A stretch of DNA of 46,752 nucleotides from Spirosoma fluviale (lineage in GTDB: Bacteria; Bacteroidota; Bacteroidia; Cytophagales; Spirosomataceae): positions 1 to 46,752 of the forward strand of contig CAMCXW010000016.1 in the NCBI GenBank assembly GCA_945883625.1. The letters run 5' to 3'. The notes under the pieces were generated by a model, which was given only the letters and a program-made list of their open reading frames with translations, had not been told where the DNA came from and searched no databases. A program made the translations under genes and the position numbers. Positions 1,610 through 22,248 of this stretch are shown here, in pieces. Position 1 is the first letter of the stretch; the number at the start of each line of letters is the position of its first letter.

Positions 1610-4309
1610 ATGAAAAATATCAAGTGCATGCAGTTTCAAAAAGTATCTAATCAATTTAAATTGTTCCGATTTATAGTATTGGGATTATTTCTTTTAGGTA
1701 GTCAATTAGGTTTTGCTCAAATACGTGGGGGTAGATTATTTCCCTCTACTGCACCGTCAGGTCCCACATTTTCCTTTGCTGATCCTCAAGAAGTAGAGAT
1801 TGCGGGTATCGAGGTAACTGGTTCACAGTTTTATGATGGAAACTCGATGATTAATATTTCGGGTTTACAAGTGGGGGATAAAATCAAAGTGCCTGGTGAT
1901 GCGATTGCGACTGCAATTCGTAAGATTATGGATCAAGGAATTTTGGATGAGGTAGAGATTTATGTGGTCAAAACGGAAGGAACTAAAATTTGGTTGGGTA
2001 TTCAATTAAAGGAGCGTCCAAGATTGTTTGCATTAAAATATACGGGTATTCGTAAGGGGGAGACGGAGACTTTAAATGAAAAAGTCAAGACATATAAGGG
2101 TAAGATTATTACGGAAACGTTACGGAAAAATCTAGAACTAGTTATTCGAAAGTATTACCAAGAAAAAGGGCGATTGAATATCAAAACGAAGTCTCAAATC
2201 GTAGTAGATACCTTACGTGGTAATAATGCTACGCTTGTAATTGCTGTAGACAAAGGTGCTAAAGTTAAGGTGAATAAGATTATTTTGAATGGGATTGAGG
2301 CTAAGCAAAGAGCATTAATCCTACGAAAAATCAAGAACACCAAGCAGCAGCGATTTGGTCGTGTTTTTAAGCCTTCTAAATTTGTTCCTAAGAAATGGGA
2401 TGAGGATAAGGAGACATTACTTGCGGCGATGAATAAGTTGGGTTTCCGTGATTTTCAAATTGAATCTGACTCAGTTTCTCGATTTAATGATGAGTCTGTT
2501 AACTTAACAATTAATTTAGTTCAGGGTAAAAAATACTTTTACCGGTCGATCATTTTTGATGGGAATTACATATATCCGGACTCGGTTTTGAATGATGTTC
2601 TGGGTATAAAAAAGGGAGATGTGTTTAATACGGAAGAGTTAGATAAGAAAATGGCTGGAAATCCAGGTGAAGACTTGAGCTCTGTTTACATGGATAATGG
2701 GTATTTGTATTATAATGCAGAGGCTGTGGAAACAGCTATTGTAGGTGACTCGATTGATTTAACGATTCGTATTAGTGAAGGAAAGCAGGCGACGATCAAC
2801 AAGGTTGTGTTGAATGGTAATACCAAAACGTCTGACCATGTTGTCATGCGCGAAATTCGTACGCTTCCAGGTCAGAAATTTAATAAGTCGGCGATCATCC
2901 GTACTGTTCGCGAGTTGTCGACCATTGGTTATTTTAACCCAGAAAAAATTACACCAAATCCAATTCCGAGACCGGATGGTACGGTGGATATTGAATATAA
3001 TGTGGAGGAGAAACCTTCAGATCAGATTGAATTATCTGGTGGCTGGGGTGGATTCATTGGTTTTGTGGGAACATTGGGGGTTGTTTTTAATAACTTCTCT
3101 GCAAAAAATTTAACAAAATTGTCGGCATGGCGTCCTTTGCCAGCTGGAGATGGGCAAAAATTATCGGTTCGTTTTCAGGCGAATGGTGCGGCTTTTCAAA
3201 ACTATAGCTTAACGTTTACGGAGCCTTGGTTAGGTGGTAAAAAACCTAATTCATTTTCTGTTTCTTTGAATCGAAGTGTATCGTATCCGTATCAGTTTCG
3301 GAACACGGGATTTGGTGGTCAAAATCAGTTTGGTGGAGGCGGTTTCGGTGGAGGCGGTTTCGGTGGAGGCGGCTTCGGTGGAGGCGGATTTGGCGGCGGT
3401 GGCTTCGGCGGTGGTGGTTTAGGAGGATTTAATGGTGGTTTGGGTGGATTTAATTCCTTTGCTGTTCCTGATTCATTACGTTCGGCACACTTTAATGTGA
3501 CTAGCATTACGTTCAGTTTAGGAAAGCGCTTAAAATGGCCAGATGATTATTTTTCGTTAAGTAATTCCCTAGCGCTTTCTTCGTTTGATGTTGACCGTTA
3601 TTACACATGGGCTTATCCACAAGGTATTTCTACTTCGATTACCTTCATGACTAACTTCTCTCGGAATAGTATTGATAACCCAACTTTTTCGCGAAATGGT
3701 TCTAGTTTTTCACTGACAGGTTCCTTGACTCCACCTTTTTCTTTGTTGGGCGGGAATAAATCAGGAACCTTGATTGAATATCATAAATGGATGTTTGATG
3801 CTAGTTGGTTTACCCCGTTGATTGGGAAATTGGTACTTCATACCCGTGCCCACTTGGGTTTCTTGGGGGCTTATGGCAATCGGGAGACAACTCGTTTCGA
3901 GCGTTTTGATGTGGGTGGTTCTGGTATGGTGCAAGGATTTCAATTTAACCGCGATATAATCGGTTTAAGGGGTTATAAAGATAGGTCGATTGGGCCATCA
4001 GGTTCGTATGGTAATGGAGGTGTCGCGTACAATAAGTTTGTATTGGAAGCGCGTTATCCTGTTTCGTTGAATCCGTCGGCAACGATATTTGTTTTGGGAT
4101 TTGCTGAGGGAGGGAATAATTTTTCTTCTTTAAAGGAGTACAGTCCGTTTAATTTGTATAAGTCGACAGGTATAGGCGCGCGTATTTTTATGCCTGCTTT
4201 TGGTATGATTGGTATCGATTATGGTTTTGCGTTGGATAAGCCGCGTCCGGGGGAATCGGATTTTGGCCGACAAGCATTTACGTTTTCGATTGGTCAGCAA
4301 ATTAGATAA
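1610..4309 (+). CDS. bamA: Outer-membrane protein assembly factor BamA
   Basis: Central pore of the machine that inserts beta-barrel proteins into the outer membrane. A signal peptide ends at about residue 36 (LGFAQ). Residues about 55-480 are a series of POTRA domains, seen as repeated G-x-x-x-NGxxxT and KGDVFN patterns such as TINKVVLNGNTKTSDHVVMR. The C-terminal half is a 16-stranded barrel with the conserved region GLRGYKDRSIGPSGSYGNGG, whose RGY matches the lid-lock loop motif of Omp85 proteins. Length 899 is typical for Bacteroidota. A Gly/Phe repeat (residues 574-603) is inserted in a barrel loop. Two Skp-like chaperone genes follow directly, the classic bamA-skp arrangement. An alternative Met at residue 7 would also keep the signal peptide. 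Confidence 0.95.
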   Translation: MKNIKCMQFQKVSNQFKLFRFIVLGLFLLGSQLGFAQIRGGRLFPSTAPSGPTFSFADPQEVEIAGIEVTGSQFYDGNSMINISGLQVGDKIKVPGDAIATAIRKIMDQGILDEVEIYVVKTEGTKIWLGIQLKERPRLFALKYTGIRKGETETLNEKVKTYKGKIITETLRKNLELVIRKYYQEKGRLNIKTKSQIVVDTLRGNNATLVIAVDKGAKVKVNKIILNGIEAKQRALILRKIKNTKQQRFGRVFKPSKFVPKKWDEDKETLLAAMNKLGFRDFQIESDSVSRFNDESVNLTINLVQGKKYFYRSIIFDGNYIYPDSVLNDVLGIKKGDVFNTEELDKKMAGNPGEDLSSVYMDNGYLYYNAEAVETAIVGDSIDLTIRISEGKQATINKVVLNGNTKTSDHVVMREIRTLPGQKFNKSAIIRTVRELSTIGYFNPEKITPNPIPRPDGTVDIEYNVEEKPSDQIELSGGWGGFIGFVGTLGVVFNNFSAKNLTKLSAWRPLPAGDGQKLSVRFQANGAAFQNYSLTFTEPWLGGKKPNSFSVSLNRSVSYPYQFRNTGFGGQNQFGGGGFGGGGFGGGGFGGGGFGGGGFGGGGLGGFNGGLGGFNSFAVPDSLRSAHFNVTSITFSLGKRLKWPDDYFSLSNSLALSSFDVDRYYTWAYPQGISTSITFMTNFSRNSIDNPTFSRNGSSFSLTGSLTPPFSLLGGNKSGTLIEYHKWMFDASWFTPLIGKLVLHTRAHLGFLGAYGNRETTRFERFDVGGSGMVQGFQFNRDIIGLRGYKDRSIGPSGSYGNGGVAYNKFVLEARYPVSLNPSATIFVLGFAEGGNNFSSLKEYSPFNLYKSTGIGARIFMPAFGMIGIDYGFALDKPRPGESDFGRQAFTFSIGQQIR
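3329..3418 (+). repeat. In-frame 15-bp tandem repeat coding (FGGGG)6 in bamA
   Basis: Six consecutive 15-nt units, each coding Phe-Gly-Gly-Gly-Gly, start at 3329, 3344, 3359, 3374, 3389 and 3404. The first four are almost identical (third-position changes only) while the last two use different Gly codons. Less regular LGGFNGG units follow to about 3460. The insert lies between barrel strands of BamA, so it is most likely a surface loop. Recent slippage expansion is likely for the first four units. Confidence 0.9.
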
Positions 4310-8746: not shown

Positions 8747-8827
8747 TAAGAGGTGAGAGGTAAGAGATAAGAGGTAACATGGGGCACCTCTTATCTCTTA
8801 CCTCTTACCTCTTATCTCTTACTTACC
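8747..8827. repeat. Inverted heptamer array 1 (unit TAAGAGR / TAYCTCT)
   Basis: The left arm 8747-8774 has four 7-bp units (TAAGAGG, TGAGAGG, TAAGAGA, TAAGAGG) plus TAA. After an 8-9 nt loop containing ATGGGG, the right arm 8785-8819 has five complementary units (CACCTCT, TATCTCT, TACCTCT, TACCTCT, TATCTCT), then TACTTACC. The arms can fold into a stem of about 30 bp with few mismatches. Stop codons recur every 7 nt on each inward strand and cover all three frames. It fills the gap between convergent genes and supplies the stop codon (8812-8814) of the minus-strand gene. Confidence 0.92.
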
Positions 8828-9708
8828 TGATAGCTCCCCCAAAACACAAGTCCCATCCCGATACACACGAGGAAAGATGGGAATCCGTGTCCTATAATGA
8901 TTTCAATCAAGATAGAAAATAATACGGCGCTGTTGCCTACGGCACCAGCAATACTTGTCTTTTCATTGAGAAGGGCCTGTGTTGTGAAGTATTGAACGCC
9001 AAGTGCCAATAAGCCCATAATCAACGCCCATGCCCATTCCGCTCCTTGAGGCGTCACCCATTTTCCCGTAAAAAAACTATTGGGATAATCTCCCCACGTA
9101 CCTAAGGCCAATGAGACACTGGATGCAATAAATCCCGCCGCCATAAACGATACCACCACCCAGCGCGAATCATAATATTTTTGAGCTTCTTTAATTGCTA
9201 AATAGCCTAATGCCGTTCCCATAGCATAAATAATCCCAGTAGCATGATGGAGCAGCTGGCCTTGCGCCTCCGGTTGGAAAATTAAAAGAATTCCCAAAAA
9301 GCCAATTATTAAATACAAAACCTGTCTAGTCGTAAGTCGTTCATTGGGGAAAATAAAGAAGCTAAAGATTGCAATGAAAAGAGGGAAGGCTTGGCCATAT
9401 GTATTTGTTAAGGAGAGGTCTAGGTGCTCCAACGTGAAAAATAGGCAATATAGGGTAAAAGCGCCCAATAAACCGCGCATTATGATGAAGTATAATTTCC
9501 CTCCAGTTTGAATGGCTGGGGTACGGTATAAACTAGTTAATAAAAATGGTAGGCCCACAGCGCTGCGAAAAAACACGAGTTCAACAGATCCGAATCGGGT
9601 GGTCATGGATTTGGCGATTGCCGACATCAGCGCAAAACACAAAGAAGAAAGTAGCATATAGCCAATTCCCTTATTTAGAAATAGTAGTTTTTTAAAGTCT
9701 ATTTGCAT
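8812..9708 (-). CDS. DMT-superfamily transporter with EamA domains
   Basis: Inner-membrane protein of 298 residues with about ten hydrophobic segments arranged as two EamA repeats (roughly 12-145 and 158-295). The start GYMLLSSLCFALMSAIAKSM and the FFRSAVGLPFLL segment are typical of drug/metabolite exporters; the substrate cannot be read from sequence. Its last four residues (VSKR) and stop codon are encoded by heptamer array 1, so the C terminus has been set by the repeat. It is divergent from the ridA-gltX unit; a possible -7 element (CAAAGGTA on the plus strand, 9771-9778) lies 62 nt upstream. Confidence 0.85.
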   Translation of the reverse strand: MQIDFKKLLFLNKGIGYMLLSSLCFALMSAIAKSMTTRFGSVELVFFRSAVGLPFLLTSLYRTPAIQTGGKLYFIIMRGLLGAFTLYCLFFTLEHLDLSLTNTYGQAFPLFIAIFSFFIFPNERLTTRQVLYLIIGFLGILLIFQPEAQGQLLHHATGIIYAMGTALGYLAIKEAQKYYDSRWVVVSFMAAGFIASSVSLALGTWGDYPNSFFTGKWVTPQGAEWAWALIMGLLALGVQYFTTQALLNEKTSIAGAVGNSAVLFSILIEIIIGHGFPSFLVCIGMGLVFWGSYQVSKR

Positions 9709-13295: not shown

Positions 13296-14279
13296 ATGAG
13301 AGAAATTCAATTTAGAGAAGCCTTGCGTGAGGCGATGCAAGAGGAAATGAGACGTGATGATACGGTCTTTTTGATGGGTGAGGAAGTTGCTGAATACAAT
13401 GGTGCTTATAAAGTTTCTCAAGGCATGCTGGATGAATTTGGTCCTGATCGCGTGATTGATACGCCGATTGCTGAATTAGGTTTCGGTGGAATTGCGGTAG
13501 GAGCATCTGCGAATGGACTTCGCCCGATTGTTGAATTCATGACCTTCAATTTTTCGTTAGTAGCGATTGATCAGGTGATTAATTCAGCAGCAAAATTGAT
13601 GTCTATGTCCGGAGGCCAATATTCTTGCCCAATTGTTTTTCGTGGTCCTACGGGAAATGCTGGTCAATTATCTTCACAGCATTCGTCTAATTTTGAAAAT
13701 TGGTTTGCCAATACACCTGGTTTAAAAGTAGTTGTTCCTTCAAATCCTGCGGATGCAAAAGGTTTGATGAAATCAGCTATTCGTGACAATGATCCTGTTA
13801 TTTTTATGGAGTCGGAAGTAATGTATGGTGACAAGGGTTTTGTTCCAGATGGTGAATATTTAATCCCAATAGGTAAAGCTTCTATTGTGAAGGAAGGAAA
13901 AGACGTTACGATCGTAACATTTGGAAAAATGCTTTCACGCGTGGTTATGCCTGCGGTAGAAGAATTGGAAAAACAAGGATTTAGTGTTGAAGTGATTGAT
14001 TTACGAACTGTTCGTCCTATTGACTATGCAACTGTTGTTGAATCTGTCAAGAAAACGAATCGCTGTGTGGTAGTTGAAGAAGCAAATCCATTGGCAGCAA
14101 TTTCTTCTGAAATCACCTACCATTTGCAACGCTGGGCCTTCGATTATTTAGATGCTCCAGTTGTGCGTGTTAACTCACGAGATTTGCCTTTACCTTATGC
14201 ACCTACGTTGATCGATGAGATTTTACCAAGTGTTGAGCGTACGATTGCAGCCGTAAAAACGGTAACATATCGGAAGTAG
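13296..14279 (+). CDS. pdhB: Pyruvate dehydrogenase E1 component, beta subunit
   Basis: Beta half of the heterotetrameric thiamine-diphosphate E1 that decarboxylates pyruvate to feed acetyl-CoA synthesis. The 327 residues begin MREIQFREALREAMQEEM and carry the ThDP-site stretch FLMGEEVAEYNGAYKVSQG (Glu29 of this type activates ThDP), then DTPIAELGFGGIAVGA and the HSSNFENWFANTPGLKVVVPS region typical of E1 beta, and the transketolase C-terminal domain from about residue 200 (FGKMLSRVV...EVIDLRTVRPID). E1 alpha and E2 are elsewhere. A related branched-chain E1 beta is possible but the closest pattern is PDH. The stop codon TAG is the first unit of heptamer array 2. Confidence 0.92.
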   Translation: MREIQFREALREAMQEEMRRDDTVFLMGEEVAEYNGAYKVSQGMLDEFGPDRVIDTPIAELGFGGIAVGASANGLRPIVEFMTFNFSLVAIDQVINSAAKLMSMSGGQYSCPIVFRGPTGNAGQLSSQHSSNFENWFANTPGLKVVVPSNPADAKGLMKSAIRDNDPVIFMESEVMYGDKGFVPDGEYLIPIGKASIVKEGKDVTIVTFGKMLSRVVMPAVEELEKQGFSVEVIDLRTVRPIDYATVVESVKKTNRCVVVEEANPLAAISSEITYHLQRWAFDYLDAPVVRVNSRDLPLPYAPTLIDEILPSVERTIAAVKTVTYRK

Positions 14280-14421
14280 TCAACAGTAGTCAGTCGCTAG
14301 TCGTCAGTCATTTAGTTAAATTAAAAGCCCTACTTGGAAATCCAGGTAGGGCTTTAGATTTTTAAATAAACATCAGTGACTAGCAATTGTTGACTAGTGA
14401 CTGACGACTAGCGACTATAGT
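14277..14421. repeat. Inverted heptamer array 2 (unit YAGTCRY) enclosing a terminator
   Basis: The left arm 14277-14311 divides into five 7-bp units: TAGTCAA, CAGTAGT, CAGTCGC, TAGTCGT, CAGTCAT. The right arm 14373-14421 divides into seven: TCAGTGA, CTAGCAA, TTGTTGA, CTAGTGA, CTGACGA, CTAGCGA, CTATAGT. A perfect 19-bp inverted repeat joins 14292-14310 with 14398-14416. A conventional terminator hairpin sits in the middle. The stop codon of pdhB (14277-14279) and that of the HtrA gene (14415-14417) are both inside the array. Confidence 0.9.
14324..14355. terminator. Intrinsic terminator between pdhB and the HtrA gene
   Basis: AAAGCCCTACTTGGA and TCCAGGTAGGGCTTT pair over 15 bp with one wobble around an AA loop. 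T-rich sequence follows on the plus strand (14358-14363) and A-rich sequence precedes it, so it could act in both directions. It is nested inside heptamer array 2. Confidence 0.85.
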
Positions 14422-15896
14422 ACATAGATAAACCGGGATCCATCGACATCCACACCTTCAAGTTTTGTTCTCCCCTTGCGTGCCTCTAGTAATTCAGCGG
14501 CTTCCTTTGGATTAGTTACAACCTTATCGTTTATTTTGGTGATAATTGAACCTTTTGACAGGCCATACATTTCGAGGCGGCCATCTGGTAAAACATCAAC
14601 AACCTTTACGCCTGAACTGACATTAAATTTCTCTTTATCGGCATTGGTAATCGGGCCAAATTTAGCTCCTAAGAATTCTGATTTATAGGATTCACTAGAT
14701 TCGCCTTTTAGAATGGACGTATTACCGTCCTTGTTTTTAAGCATTACAGTAAATTCCTTTGTTTGGCCATCACGGTTAACTGTGACACGCACAGCCTCAC
14801 CCGGACGCTTGCTACTTACAATTTCCATTAATTTCGACGTTGTCTTTGTCTCTATTCCTTCCACTTTGGTAATGACATCGTTAATTTTCACACCGGCATC
14901 CTTGGCTGCGGAATTCTCTGAAAAGCCACCTACGTAAATTCCCGTGGATATTTTAAGATCTTTTTCGTCTACTAATTTAGCGTTGACCTCTGAAATACTT
15001 ACGCCAAGGAACCCACGTTGTACGTTGCCATATTTAATAAGATCTCCTGAAACTTTTTTGACAATGCTTACAGGGACAGCAAATGAATAACCGGCAAACT
15101 GGCCTGTTCGGGAATAAATGGCTGTATTTATTCCTATCAATTCCCCTTTCAGATTAACTAAAGCTCCACCGGAATTACCAGGATTTACGGCCGCATCTGT
15201 TTGAATAAAGGATTCTAATGGGTTTGAGGCTCCGTCGCCATCGCGATCGATGATATTTTGACGGCCTTTAGCTGATATAATTCCTGCCGTTACTGTTGAC
15301 TCTAAATTGAATGGATTTCCTACGGCAAGTACCCATTCGCCTACTTTTACATTGTCAGAATCGCCAAAATTCAAAAACGGCAAGCCAGTTGCCTTAATTT
15401 GAATTACTGCCAAATCAGATGATGGATCTGTCGAGATAACCTTAGCTTTAAATTCGCGTTTGTCATTCAACATGACCGTGATTTCAGAAGATTCAGCTAC
15501 TACGTGATTGTTTGTGACAATATATCCATCTGAACTTATGATTACTCCTGAACCCGATGCTTCTTGTGGCTGAGGTGATTGGCGGCGACCACCACCTCCA
15601 AATGGATCTCCATATCCGCCAAATAATTCTTCAAATGGGTTAGATGGCTGGCGTGATCGTTGTTGCATTTTAGTTTTAATGTGCACGACAGCAGGCGTTG
15701 TTTTTTCAGCTGCATAGGTGAACTCTCCAGGGTTTCCTGGTGCATTTATACTTGAAATATTACTTGTAAAGGCTGATGGCGCATTGCTTATAGAAGCTGA
15801 CGAACCTAAATCGAATAATTGATAGGCCCCTAGTGTGGCTCCACTAGATAATAAGGCTATGACTACATAGGATTTTAACTGATTTTTCATTTCCAT
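14415..15896 (-). CDS. Do/HtrA-like periplasmic serine protease with two PDZ domains
   Basis: Envelope quality-control protease and chaperone. A hydrophobic N-terminal segment (about residues 8-28) acts as signal or anchor. The trypsin-like domain carries the full triad: His131 (TNNHVV), Asp161 (SSDLAVIQI) and Ser242 (NPGNSGGALV). A Gly/Arg/Gln-rich loop (about 83-115) precedes it. PDZ1 begins near RGFLGVSISEV (about 295) and a second, more divergent PDZ lies at about 400-490 (GVKVVDVLPDGRLEMYGLSKGS). Length 493 matches DegP-type proteins. A start at Met3 is equally possible. The stop codon lies in array 2. Confidence 0.92.
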   Translation of the reverse strand: MEMKNQLKSYVVIALLSSGATLGAYQLFDLGSSASISNAPSAFTSNISSINAPGNPGEFTYAAEKTTPAVVHIKTKMQQRSRQPSNPFEELFGGYGDPFGGGGRRQSPQPQEASGSGVIISSDGYIVTNNHVVAESSEITVMLNDKREFKAKVISTDPSSDLAVIQIKATGLPFLNFGDSDNVKVGEWVLAVGNPFNLESTVTAGIISAKGRQNIIDRDGDGASNPLESFIQTDAAVNPGNSGGALVNLKGELIGINTAIYSRTGQFAGYSFAVPVSIVKKVSGDLIKYGNVQRGFLGVSISEVNAKLVDEKDLKISTGIYVGGFSENSAAKDAGVKINDVITKVEGIETKTTSKLMEIVSSKRPGEAVRVTVNRDGQTKEFTVMLKNKDGNTSILKGESSESYKSEFLGAKFGPITNADKEKFNVSSGVKVVDVLPDGRLEMYGLSKGSIITKINDKVVTNPKEAAELLEARKGRTKLEGVDVDGSRFIYVL

Positions 15897-19678: not shown

Positions 19679-21397
19679 ATGAAACGTATGTGGGAATCCT
19701 TATTTAGAAAGAAGTCAATCGATAAAATCATTTCGGATCAAGCGGAAATGGAAAATTTGGCTGGAAATCATCTAGTTCGCAATTTAGGTGTGCGCGATTT
19801 GACTTTTATGGGAATTGCGGCCATTATAGGTGCAAGTATTTTTTCTGCCATTGGGCAGGCATCTGCGAATGGCGGGCCTGCTGTTTCCATGTTATTTGTA
19901 TTTACAGCCATGGCCTGTATGTTTACCGCTTTTTGTTATGCGCGTTTTGCTGCCACTGTACCTATTTCTGGTAGTGCCTACACCTACGCTTACACTAGTT
20001 TAGGTGAAATTGTAGCTTGGATTTTGGGTTGGAATTTATTGTTGGAATATGCTATTTCTAATGTAGCGGTCGCTATTTCGTGGTCCAAATACTTTGTTGA
20101 CCTACTAGAAGGCTTAGGCTTCCATGTTCCTGAATTTTTAACCATGGATTATTTATCCGCGAAACGAGCCTTTTCAGCAGCTGAAGTAGGTATACAATCT
20201 GGCCAATCACTCGAATCAATGTCTGTCAATATTAGAGAAGGATATGCTGCTTTTGCTTCAGCTCCTACCATTTTCGGTTGGCATTTTGTTGCCAACATCC
20301 CCGCATTAGTAATTACGGTTGCCATAACTTACTTAGTTTATATTGGAATTAAAGAATCGAAAAATACCAACAATATTTTAGTTGTGTTGAAGTTGGCCGT
20401 CATCGCCCTCGTGGTTGGCGTAGGTGCCTTTTATGTTCAAGTTGAAAATTGGACTCCATTTGCGCCGAATGGCATTTCGGGTGTTTTAAAAAGCGTGGCT
20501 GCCGTTTGCTTTGCTTACATTGGTTTTGATTCTATTTCAACAACGGCAGAGGAGTGTAAAAATCCACAACGTGATATTCCCAAAGCCATGATGTGGGCTT
20601 TGTTGGTTTGCACGGTTCTCTATGTCATGGTGACGTTGGTGCTTACGGGTATTGTGCCATCACATTTATTGGCTGGAATTGAAGATCCTTTGGCATTTAT
20701 GTTCATGAAGGTTAATCTTCCTGGTGTCGCTGGTGTTGTCGCTGCAAGTGCGGTTATTGCCTTGACTTCGGCTTTGCTTGTCTACCAACTTGGTCAGCCA
20801 CGGATTTGGATGACGATGTCACGTGATGGATTATTGCCAAAAGCTTTTGCGCGCATTCATCCAAAATATCACACGCCATCTTTTTCTACGATTATGACAG
20901 GGGTGTTGGTAGGTGTTCCTGCGTTGTTTGCGAATTTGGAGGAGGTGATTAACTTAAGCAGTATAGGAACATTATTTGCTTTTGTTCTTGTTTGTGGCGG
21001 GGTTTTAGTCTTGGATTTGGATCCAGAAAATCAGAAAAAATCAAAGTTTAAGATTCCATATTTGAATGCAGGTATTTGGGTTGGTGCTACATGGCTTGTG
21101 GCCTTGTATCTTTCACTGCCAGATGGGCAATCGTGGTTATCGTGGCTTCAAGGATATGTCGAAGGTGATTCCAAGGCAGATCATGTGATTATGTCTGGCT
21201 TTTTCCTGATTTGGTTAGTCTTGTCAATTTTTAGTTTTACCCATAAACTTTCGTTAATTCCAGTCCTAGGCTTATTGGTTAATTTATACCTGATGACTCA
21301 AATGGGCGCCACAAATTGGGAGCGCTTTTTTTACTGGTGCTTAGCCGGGATTGTTATTTATTTTGGATATAGTTATCGGAAGAGTAAATTAGCTTAA
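19679..21397 (+). CDS. APC-superfamily amino acid permease (CAT-like)
   Basis: Inner-membrane transporter of 572 residues with about 12-14 hydrophobic segments. The first segment LTFMGIAAIIGASIFSAIGQ contains the unwound GxG-type substrate motif of APC carriers; FAYIGFDSISTTAEECKNPQRDIPKAM is the conserved helix 6 and loop; RIWMTMSRDGLLPKAFARIH is the conserved loop after helix 8. The pattern is closest to the cationic amino acid transporter group (YfnA/GkApcT-like), so uptake of amino acids by proton symport is likely; the exact substrate is unknown. The stop TAA is followed directly by heptamer array 3. Confidence 0.9.
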   Translation: MKRMWESLFRKKSIDKIISDQAEMENLAGNHLVRNLGVRDLTFMGIAAIIGASIFSAIGQASANGGPAVSMLFVFTAMACMFTAFCYARFAATVPISGSAYTYAYTSLGEIVAWILGWNLLLEYAISNVAVAISWSKYFVDLLEGLGFHVPEFLTMDYLSAKRAFSAAEVGIQSGQSLESMSVNIREGYAAFASAPTIFGWHFVANIPALVITVAITYLVYIGIKESKNTNNILVVLKLAVIALVVGVGAFYVQVENWTPFAPNGISGVLKSVAAVCFAYIGFDSISTTAEECKNPQRDIPKAMMWALLVCTVLYVMVTLVLTGIVPSHLLAGIEDPLAFMFMKVNLPGVAGVVAASAVIALTSALLVYQLGQPRIWMTMSRDGLLPKAFARIHPKYHTPSFSTIMTGVLVGVPALFANLEEVINLSSIGTLFAFVLVCGGVLVLDLDPENQKKSKFKIPYLNAGIWVGATWLVALYLSLPDGQSWLSWLQGYVEGDSKADHVIMSGFFLIWLVLSIFSFTHKLSLIPVLGLLVNLYLMTQMGATNWERFFYWCLAGIVIYFGYSYRKSKLA

Positions 21398-21571
21398 TAG
21401 ACGCTAGACTTTAGACGTTAGACGCTAGATTTTTTACATTAACTTCGAAGTTAACGAAAGTTCTATGGTCTAAAGTCTAACGTCCAAAGTCTAACGTCCA
21501 ACGTCTAACGTCCAACGTCTAACGTCCAACGTCTAACGTCTAACGTCCAACGTCCAACGTCTATCGTCTAG
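21398..21571. repeat. Inverted heptamer array 3 (unit TAGACGY / CGTCYAA)
   Basis: The left arm 21398-21432 has five 7-bp units (TAGACGC, TAGACTT, TAGACGT, TAGACGC, TAGATTT). The right arm 21467-21571 has fifteen unbroken 7-bp units of the form CGTCTAA/CGTCCAA, in part alternating. Between them is a perfect 16-bp palindrome TTAACTTCGAAGTTAA (21439-21454). The array starts on the base after the permease stop codon, and its last unit supplies the stop codon (21568-21570) of the minus-strand peptidase gene. Confidence 0.95.
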
Positions 21572-22248
21572 TTCTCCCTTCTCCCCCCTAATAAATTCAG
21601 ATAGTATAATAATTGAGCGAGCATACCTAGTGCTGCGACAACGTACGTCATTGCTGCCCACCAAAGTGCATCTTTGGACATGCTATATTCTGCTGGAGTA
21701 ACGATGTTGTTTGCTTTAATCCAGGCTAATGCTCGATTAGAGGCATCAAATTCTACCGGTAGTGTGATAAAACTAAAAAGTGTAGCCATGGCGAAAAGGA
21801 TTACACCAATTTGTAAAACGGTCGTATTTCCTGTTGAATACAAGAGCATCATGCCGCCCATTAACAATAAGGGCATAAATCCATTTGCGAAGTTTAGCAT
21901 GGGAACCATCGCACTGCGGAATTGTAAAAAACTGTAAGCGCGCGCATGCTGAACGGCGTGTCCACATTCGTGCGCAGCAACTGCCGCCGCGGCTGCATTT
22001 CGGCCATGAAAGACATCCGCACTTAAATTGACTGTTTTGTCTGCTGGGTTGTAGTGGTCTGTCAACTTCCCATCTACGGTAATAACGCGCACGTCTGAAA
22101 TGCCGTGGTCTGCAAGCATGCGATTCGCGATTTCTTCGCCGGAAAGATTACTTTGCAAGCTTTGTTCTGAATACGTTTTAAACTTGGATTTTAGGCGCCA
22201 TGAAATAAGCATGCCAAGTACACCAAAAATGATTGCTATGAAATACAT
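21568..22248 (-). CDS. Neutral zinc metallopeptidase, YugP/DUF2265-like
   Basis: Membrane protein of 226 residues with an N-terminal hydrophobic segment (2-16) and further segments at about 110-135, 137-160 and 195-215. The gluzincin-type motif HECGH (His93, Glu94, His97) in AAAAVAAHECGHAVQHA marks an active zinc peptidase. The preceding stretch YNPADKTVNLSADVFHGRNAA is characteristic of the YugP family. The biological substrate is unknown. It is the last gene of a three-gene unit with the heptose adenylyltransferase (4-nt gap). Its stop lies in array 3. Confidence 0.87.
   Translation of the reverse strand: MYFIAIIFGVLGMLISWRLKSKFKTYSEQSLQSNLSGEEIANRMLADHGISDVRVITVDGKLTDHYNPADKTVNLSADVFHGRNAAAAAVAAHECGHAVQHARAYSFLQFRSAMVPMLNFANGFMPLLLMGGMMLLYSTGNTTVLQIGVILFAMATLFSFITLPVEFDASNRALAWIKANNIVTPAEYSMSKDALWWAAMTYVVAALGMLAQLLYYLNLLGGRREN

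Follow-up and report, generated by a model that had tools for sequence, protein, structure and literature searches.

Tandem repeats of seven-nucleotide units have been described in bacteria in two systems that come close to the arrays studied here. Repeats of GGGAATC and GGGGA(C/T)T were reported from Xanthomonas and Nostoc, and those of Xanthomonas often form inverted pairs; the accessible part of that report deals with a single G-rich word type and with quadruplex folding (PMC4692102, 2015). Direct repeats of TAACTGA occur in Beggiatoaceae, Cyanobacteria and some Bacteroidetes (MacGregor, 2015, PMC4679880), as one word that, in the portion of the paper at hand, lies mostly before start codons and is almost never inverted. 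The same portion states that forward TAACTGA repeats place a stop in each of the three frames, that they overlap the gene end by up to 18 nt, with 13 cases covering the stop codon, and that other heptamers are noted in Bacteroidetes intergenic regions. Mrazek (2007), as cited in PMC4679880, found heptanucleotide units to be the most abundant class in most genomes and proposed polymerase slippage for long simple sequence repeats, with no strand rule or orthologous word switching mentioned in the cited passage. Moreover, heptamer-type repeats have been surveyed by pattern class (PMC4060949), and a minisatellite inside a MITE is described in the available part of a report on Porphyromonas gingivalis (PMC4596501). 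In the literature searched, as far as it was accessible, intergenic heptamer arrays are treated only in PMC4679880 and PMC4692102, and no report of a multi-word, arm-matched and word-switching form was found, further print being possible in both respects. We read the arrays described here as a variant of these known bacterial heptamer repeats (Xanthomonas GGGAATC, Beggiatoaceae TAACTGA). Like the 3'-end heptamers in the consulted part of PMC4692102, they have the G- or purine-rich strand as the coding strand behind the stop; unlike those, they are built in each genome from many different words, most of which have no G run and which are switched at orthologous junctions. Neither of the window words TAGACGT and TAAGAGG has the run of three G of a quadruplex-type word, and consensus words with such a run were found in a single genome, G015 (AGGGTTT, AGGGGTT, AGGGATT). 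With the TAACTGA system, as represented in the part of PMC4679880 consulted, they have the period of seven in common, and they differ from it in standing behind stop codons, in being purine-sense and in often being paired; since the window words differ and the arrays favour 3' ends, they do not belong to the TAACTGA family. One TAACTGA-like array was seen in the genome of the window (L034:14500-14541).

The window analysed here is a stretch of 46,752 nucleotides from the 2.3-Mb draft genome, in 86 contigs, of a freshwater bacterium (G000; Bacteroidota, Cytophagales), with three arrays under study. Array 3 occupies the space separating two facing genes. Its left arm of TAGACGT units (21398..21429, plus strand) directly follows the TAA of the plus-strand gene at 19679..21397, whose product P0003 (572 aa) looks like an amino-acid permease, as judged by reading the translation rather than by a family search, and its right arm (21462..21570), written GTCTAAC/GTCCAAC on the plus strand, has the minus strand as its purine strand, where the outermost unit provides the TAG stop of the facing gene at 21568..22248. 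The product of this minus-strand gene, P0004 (226 aa), has matches in 36 of 39 genomes and contains an HECGH motif, which we take to be zinc-peptidase-like; its best matches among named records, at 82-83%, come from a metagenome-assembled genome of Spirosoma fluviale, from Aquirufa aurantiipilula and from a Cytophagaceae metagenome-assembled genome. Between the two arms the sequence reads as a small palindrome, TTAACTTCGAAGTTAA (21439..21454), and the A-run/stem/T-run hairpin of most relatives was not seen in the loop by eye; a plasmid search with array 3 as the query gave no match. Array 1 consists of a left arm of TAAGAGG units (8747..8777, plus) and a right arm reading CCTCTTA on the plus strand (8786..8822, minus); it terminates within the facing minus-strand gene at 8812..9708, and the TAA stop of that gene (8812-8814) is part of a right-arm repeat unit. 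In array 2 the left arm (14277..14310, plus) begins at the TAG stop of the gene at 13296..14279, the right arm (14375..14419, minus) contains the TAG (CTA at 14415-14417) that is the stop of the gene at 14415..15896, and the arms pair over about 20 bases around an ordinary terminator-like hairpin of A-run, GC stem and T-run (14324..14355, assigned to neither strand).

Arrays of this kind are a recurrent feature of the genus. Under the name Aquirufa we count the genome of the window, which we take to be Aquirufa or a close relative, together with its genus-mates, in five samples totalling 1.92 Mb (G000, 447 kb; G007, 400 kb; G019, 400 kb; G022, 303 kb; G015, 372 kb), and the comparison set of other Bacteroidota comprises 76 loci (1.42 Mb), left from 80 after the three nearest to the window (L081-L083) and one Arcicella metagenome-assembled genome (L150) had been dropped. 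Arrays were scanned for with a mismatch penalty of -1.5 and a threshold of 10, or of 8-9 in the paired-arm scans; a stricter scan gave 7 segments in the G000 sample, and the counts below use the relaxed settings. Genes are longest-ORF calls of at least 80 aa and not the output of a trained gene finder, and some gene ends may be wrong. With a period of seven, 14 segments were found in the 447 kb of G000 against 2 in one shuffle, so the arrays are not due to chance. The five samples gave 14, 33, 31, 13 and 19 period-7 segments, and 0-4 for periods 5 and 8; periods 14 and 21 appear as echoes of 7, and multiples of three (6, 9, 12, 15) also yield 2-18 segments, as coding repeats would. Tandem 7-nt units thus stand well above adjacent periods, as in bacterial heptameric simple sequence repeats. 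In a relative of another family (G028, 400 kb sampled) no period-7 excess was found, and the trait is therefore not universal. The five samples contain 110 arrays, of which 105 lie outside ORFs, making them mainly intergenic; arrays inside ORFs (5 in Aquirufa, 10 in the other loci) were excluded, and since words and species are related, the array counts are not independent of one another.

The placement of the arrays points to the ends of genes. Among the 105 noncoding arrays of Aquirufa, 86 have a gene 3' end no more than 150 nt away, and 27 a 5' end. Of the intergenic regions of 25 to 600 nt in Aquirufa, 29 of the 128 convergent ones have arrays, as do 19 of the 395 tandem and 3 of the 245 divergent ones; in the other Bacteroidota (regions of at least 25 nt) the figures are 9 of 160, 31 of 563 and 0 of 190, respectively. 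An earlier note on this DNA had placed the arrays between facing genes, and this is indeed where they are commonest in Aquirufa, but tandem regions have them too; what the sites have in common is therefore the 3' end of a gene rather than convergence itself. The median length of convergent regions is 209 nt with arrays and 73 nt without. Of the 29 array-bearing convergent regions 18 have a terminator-like hairpin, as do 57 of the 99 array-free ones, a similar frequency which indicates that the arrays are an addition and neither replace nor need terminators. A role as replacement terminators was rejected on the same counts.

Close to gene ends the arrays follow a strand rule. Within 45 nt of a gene 3' end in Aquirufa, the purine strand is the sense strand in 54 arrays and the pyrimidine strand in 4, with 8 neutral, and similar results were obtained in the other Bacteroidota, where the words are different (23 purine, 3 pyrimidine and 2 neutral, or 24, 3 and 2 if arrays in ORFs are kept). 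The rule fades at 46-150 nt, with 10 purine, 6 pyrimidine and 4 neutral arrays in Aquirufa and 6, 12 and 3 elsewhere. An overlap of more than 40 nt with a gene end was seen for one array only; the rule is hence not an effect of read-through arrays dropping out of the count. Likewise, the sequence of 40 nt behind the stop is 65% purine where there is an array and 48-50% purine where there is none. In the comparison of orientation with stop codons, for which both sets were taken together and the 10 purine-neutral arrays (8 in Aquirufa, 2 in other Bacteroidota) set aside, the purine strand was still the sense strand in 20 of the 21 arrays whose purine strand has no stop, namely in 8 of 9 with a stop on the pyrimidine strand and in all 12 with a stop on neither strand. 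Stop codons therefore do not set the orientation; the arrays are oriented by purine content. The question thereby moves to strand polarity, unrelated heptamers in different bacteria so regularly turning the purine strand to the message just after a gene.

To account for this location and polarity we favour, at roughly even chances, fast-evolving heptamer arrays expanding in untranslated DNA immediately after stop codons, the purine strand being the message. We infer that their growth by slippage or exchange would be tied to transcription: a purine message on a pyrimidine template would favour stable RNA-DNA hybrids in the part of the RNA no longer covered by ribosomes, and selection would merely keep the arrays out of coding sequence. 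Each facing gene may carry its own array, so that two would become inverted arms whose pairing could give a long hairpin, either enclosing an ordinary bidirectional terminator or substituting for one. The backup stops, which were measured, and the 3' hairpins, which are predicted, would then be side effects, and either may be mildly useful. A broader proposal, that arrays behind genes in Bacteroidota follow one strand rule, set by transcription and not by codons, and that each lineage has a private word pool from which words at old sites are replaced, with facing arms changing together, is possible and is offered tentatively. On that proposal the arrays would form a kind of 3'-end repeat that is driven by transcription, renews itself and supplies the stop codons of the genes that it reaches. 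Slippage alone leaves unexplained why both arms have a common word family.

The likeness of the arms speaks for selection of the arrays as RNA hairpins at 3' ends, protecting message ends or blocking convergent transcription, whether or not the loop holds a terminator. Three homologous junctions were built from orthologs of three genes beside arrays. At the junction of array 3, arrays are present in 12 of the 24 species examined, with words such as TAGACGT, AGAGGTA, AATGGTG, ATAGAGT and TAAAGCA in different species; at the other two they are present in at least 14 and at least 11 species, among the 30 loci listed of 38 genus genomes matched. Closely related species often have one word in common at a junction. 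In the 22 cases with both arms, the summed duplex energy was -643.5 with the arms' own partners and -416.6 (sd 41.3) with those of other species at the same junction; none of 1000 permutations of partners between species was as good, in 13 of 22 cases the best-ranking partner was the arm's own, and a within-genome version of the test on 22 pairs was weaker (11/500). Arms are thus matched at orthologous junctions despite word switching. Further in line with selected hairpins are the strong folds of the window arrays relative to shuffles (z of -5.4 for array 3, -10.4 for array 1 and -12.0 for array 2), the enrichment between convergent genes, and array 3 and locus L055, where by eye no ordinary terminator is left; hairpins should form at RNA 3' ends if the array regions are transcribed. 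However, one arm does not mirror its partner in the order of variant units more than chance would allow: of 42 tests, 3 gave p <= 0.05, with a mean score of 22.4 against 21.7. These tests were confined to arm pairs of one word family (score of at least 14) with varied units, two G007 junctions being counted twice, as sampled stretch and as locus. The arms therefore have a common word but are not faithful copies. Furthermore, terminators are not depleted where arrays are present, 13 of the 30 array-bearing convergent regions have one detected array segment only, and at the array 3 junction an array is missing from 12 of the 24 species, which by eye have a short terminator in its place, array-free species at the junctions in general having a short A-run/stem/T-run terminator or other sequence. 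On balance we consider selection for the hairpin rather unlikely. Template copying of one arm from the other, as a way of keeping the arms alike, was rejected on the unmirrored unit order. Words with at most one difference make up 18.9% of pairs between sites in one genome, 15.8% at the same site in different species and 3.5% between arrays of different genomes, which fits a lineage-specific word pool replacing words at old sites. Junctions with switched words are a natural experiment on how the repeats spread and on whether the hairpins matter.

Spread between sites could also be the work of mobile palindromic elements, MITE- or REP-like, of which the arrays would be parts and which would carry a terminator as they jump between gene ends. 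With the arrays masked, 13 of 59 array regions have a repeat elsewhere in the genome sample, against 39 of 643 other regions; this larger share of other repeats in common with the genome hints at mobility and counts against the slippage model. For one array-terminator unit (L167:19395-19560), G007 contains three partial copies of greater length, at 72-77% identity, and ATC-SSC-NNN-GSS-GAT hairpins, which stand beside some arrays, number 19, 35 and 41 in G007, G019 and G012, and 3, 3, 3 and 2 in G000, G022, G015 and G024. Part of the array spread may, to go by the masked regions and the copies of the L167 unit, be due to mobile units. Nevertheless, most of the 56 matches to the L167 unit in G007 are of arm length only, and 46 of the 59 array regions have, in the sampled stretches, nothing in common outside the arrays, so that we regard mobile elements as a decidedly doubtful general origin. 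The hairpins themselves (e.g., L167:12390-12425, L302, L304, L305) lie beside AAAGCAT/CAAAGTT arrays at the junctions read, and look like a REP-like repeat expanded in one part of the genus.

The earlier note had seen in the arrays frame-independent translation stops behind genes. Its description of the window was accurate in most points. In array 3 TAG stands on the plus strand at 21398, 21405 and 21412, and on the minus strand (CTA on plus) at 21568, 21561, 21540 and 21533, the latter arm covering all three frames; in array 1 TAA, TGA and TAA stand at 8747, 8754 and 8761, and TTA on the plus strand at 8805, 8812 and 8819. Both arrays have stops in three frames on both inward strands, with 2/2/1 stops per frame in the left arm (plus) and 2/4/3 in the right arm (minus) of array 3, and 2/2/1 and 1/2/2, respectively, in array 1. 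For array 2, to which two frames only had been ascribed, this is true of the left arm (2/1/0, plus) but not of the right arm, which covers three (1/2/1, minus). The reasoning that each seven-base unit moves the frame by one, so that with one stop per unit three units cover every frame, is also sound, and this frame argument is already in print for another word, TAACTGA, in the part of PMC4679880 available. Stops in all frames follow largely from the period (7 = 1 mod 3) together with purine-rich words containing a T ahead of two purines; when a word rich in purines has a T, it usually includes TAA, TAG or TGA. In Aquirufa 85 of the 105 arrays (81%) have a purine-strand stop in the consensus word, stop-free heptamers thus being the minority within the genus, against 71.3 (sd 4.0; about 68%) after letter permutation; the stop content hence moderately exceeds that of letter-permuted words, but lies much nearer to chance than does the presence of the arrays.

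Some of the counts near genes favour a function of these stops. Purine-strand stops occur in 55 of 66 arrays near gene ends (44.4 expected) and in 30 of 39 elsewhere (26.9 expected), and when the neighbouring gene is used to define the sense strand, a stop is present in 52 of 66 Aquirufa arrays against 42.2 expected, a moderate excess over composition that must be read with the caution that gene ends are defined by stops, that sites have words in common and that the species are related; with the same proviso that genes and words are not independent, it also stands against the slippage model. A second in-frame stop within 7 codons was found in 32 of 46 genes whose stop lies no more than 15 nt from an array, against 238 of 591 others (p = 1.5e-4), a comparison group that omits genes with an array further away. 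However, permuting the seven array columns still gave 27.0 of 46, with 62 of 1000 permutations reaching 32, whereas base shuffling gave 21.3 of 46, with 1 of 1000 reaching 32, so that the early-stop effect is mostly one of composition and period and less one of word choice. Outside Aquirufa, the 76 loci show no excess of stops in the sense word (16 of 28 against 18.8 expected), with 14 of 28 against 10.9 on the antisense strand. The AAAGCAC/AAAGTTC group is mostly stop-free (2 of 7 words with a stop), orientation tracks purine and not stops, and one extra stop codon would serve equally. Stops on the pyrimidine strand show a larger relative excess than those on the purine strand (47 of 105 Aquirufa arrays against 25.7 expected, sd 3.9), which our purine argument does not account for. 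That the arrays exist for their stops is thus not supported by the column permutation, the counts outside Aquirufa and the orientation of stop-free arrays, and we think it very unlikely; on these results and on composition, stop codons were rejected as the organising principle in the sense of a main cause. We read them as a by-product and not as a designed insulator.

The arrays nevertheless leave their mark on the genes that they abut. Of the 46 abutting genes, 19 have their own stop codon (13 TAG, 6 TAA) within array sequence, and in these the array extends into the ORF by 3 to 18 nt, counting the stop; TAG is the terminal codon of 22 of 46 array genes against 117 of 591 others (p = 5e-5). 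Stop codons, and at times the final few sense codons as well, thus appear to be overwritten by arrays, and by extending into C-termini and stop codons the arrays can disturb the annotation of gene ends.

Rho prefers C-rich, G-poor RNA, and the pyrimidine strand could be a putative Rho entry site ending antisense transcription from the facing gene, as the concentration of arrays between convergent genes and the excess of C over G on the antisense strand of 52 of 66 arrays near 3' ends would allow, but G exceeds C in 12 of the 66 and, with both arms present, the pyrimidine arm of that transcript would be base-paired to its purine counterpart, which makes this reading extremely improbable.

Repeats of other kinds were seen at some of the junctions and in the window. 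At the 3' junction of P0005, loci L280, L285 and L289 have strings of small hairpins spaced by TAGTC, e.g., TAGTCGTCACTTTGTGAC, in place of heptamers, and at the 3' junction of P0007 a tandem 15-base unit, TTAGTCCGAAGGGAA, fills in L316 the slot held by heptamers elsewhere. Two loci of G015 (L221, L225) have telomere-like heptamers (TTAGGGA/TTAGGGG/TTAGTGA) in arrays of up to 186 bases. In the window itself, positions 3328-3420 hold 6.3 tandem copies of the 15-base unit GTTTCGGTGGAGGCG within the ORF at 1610-4309, presumably encoding a glycine-rich repeat.
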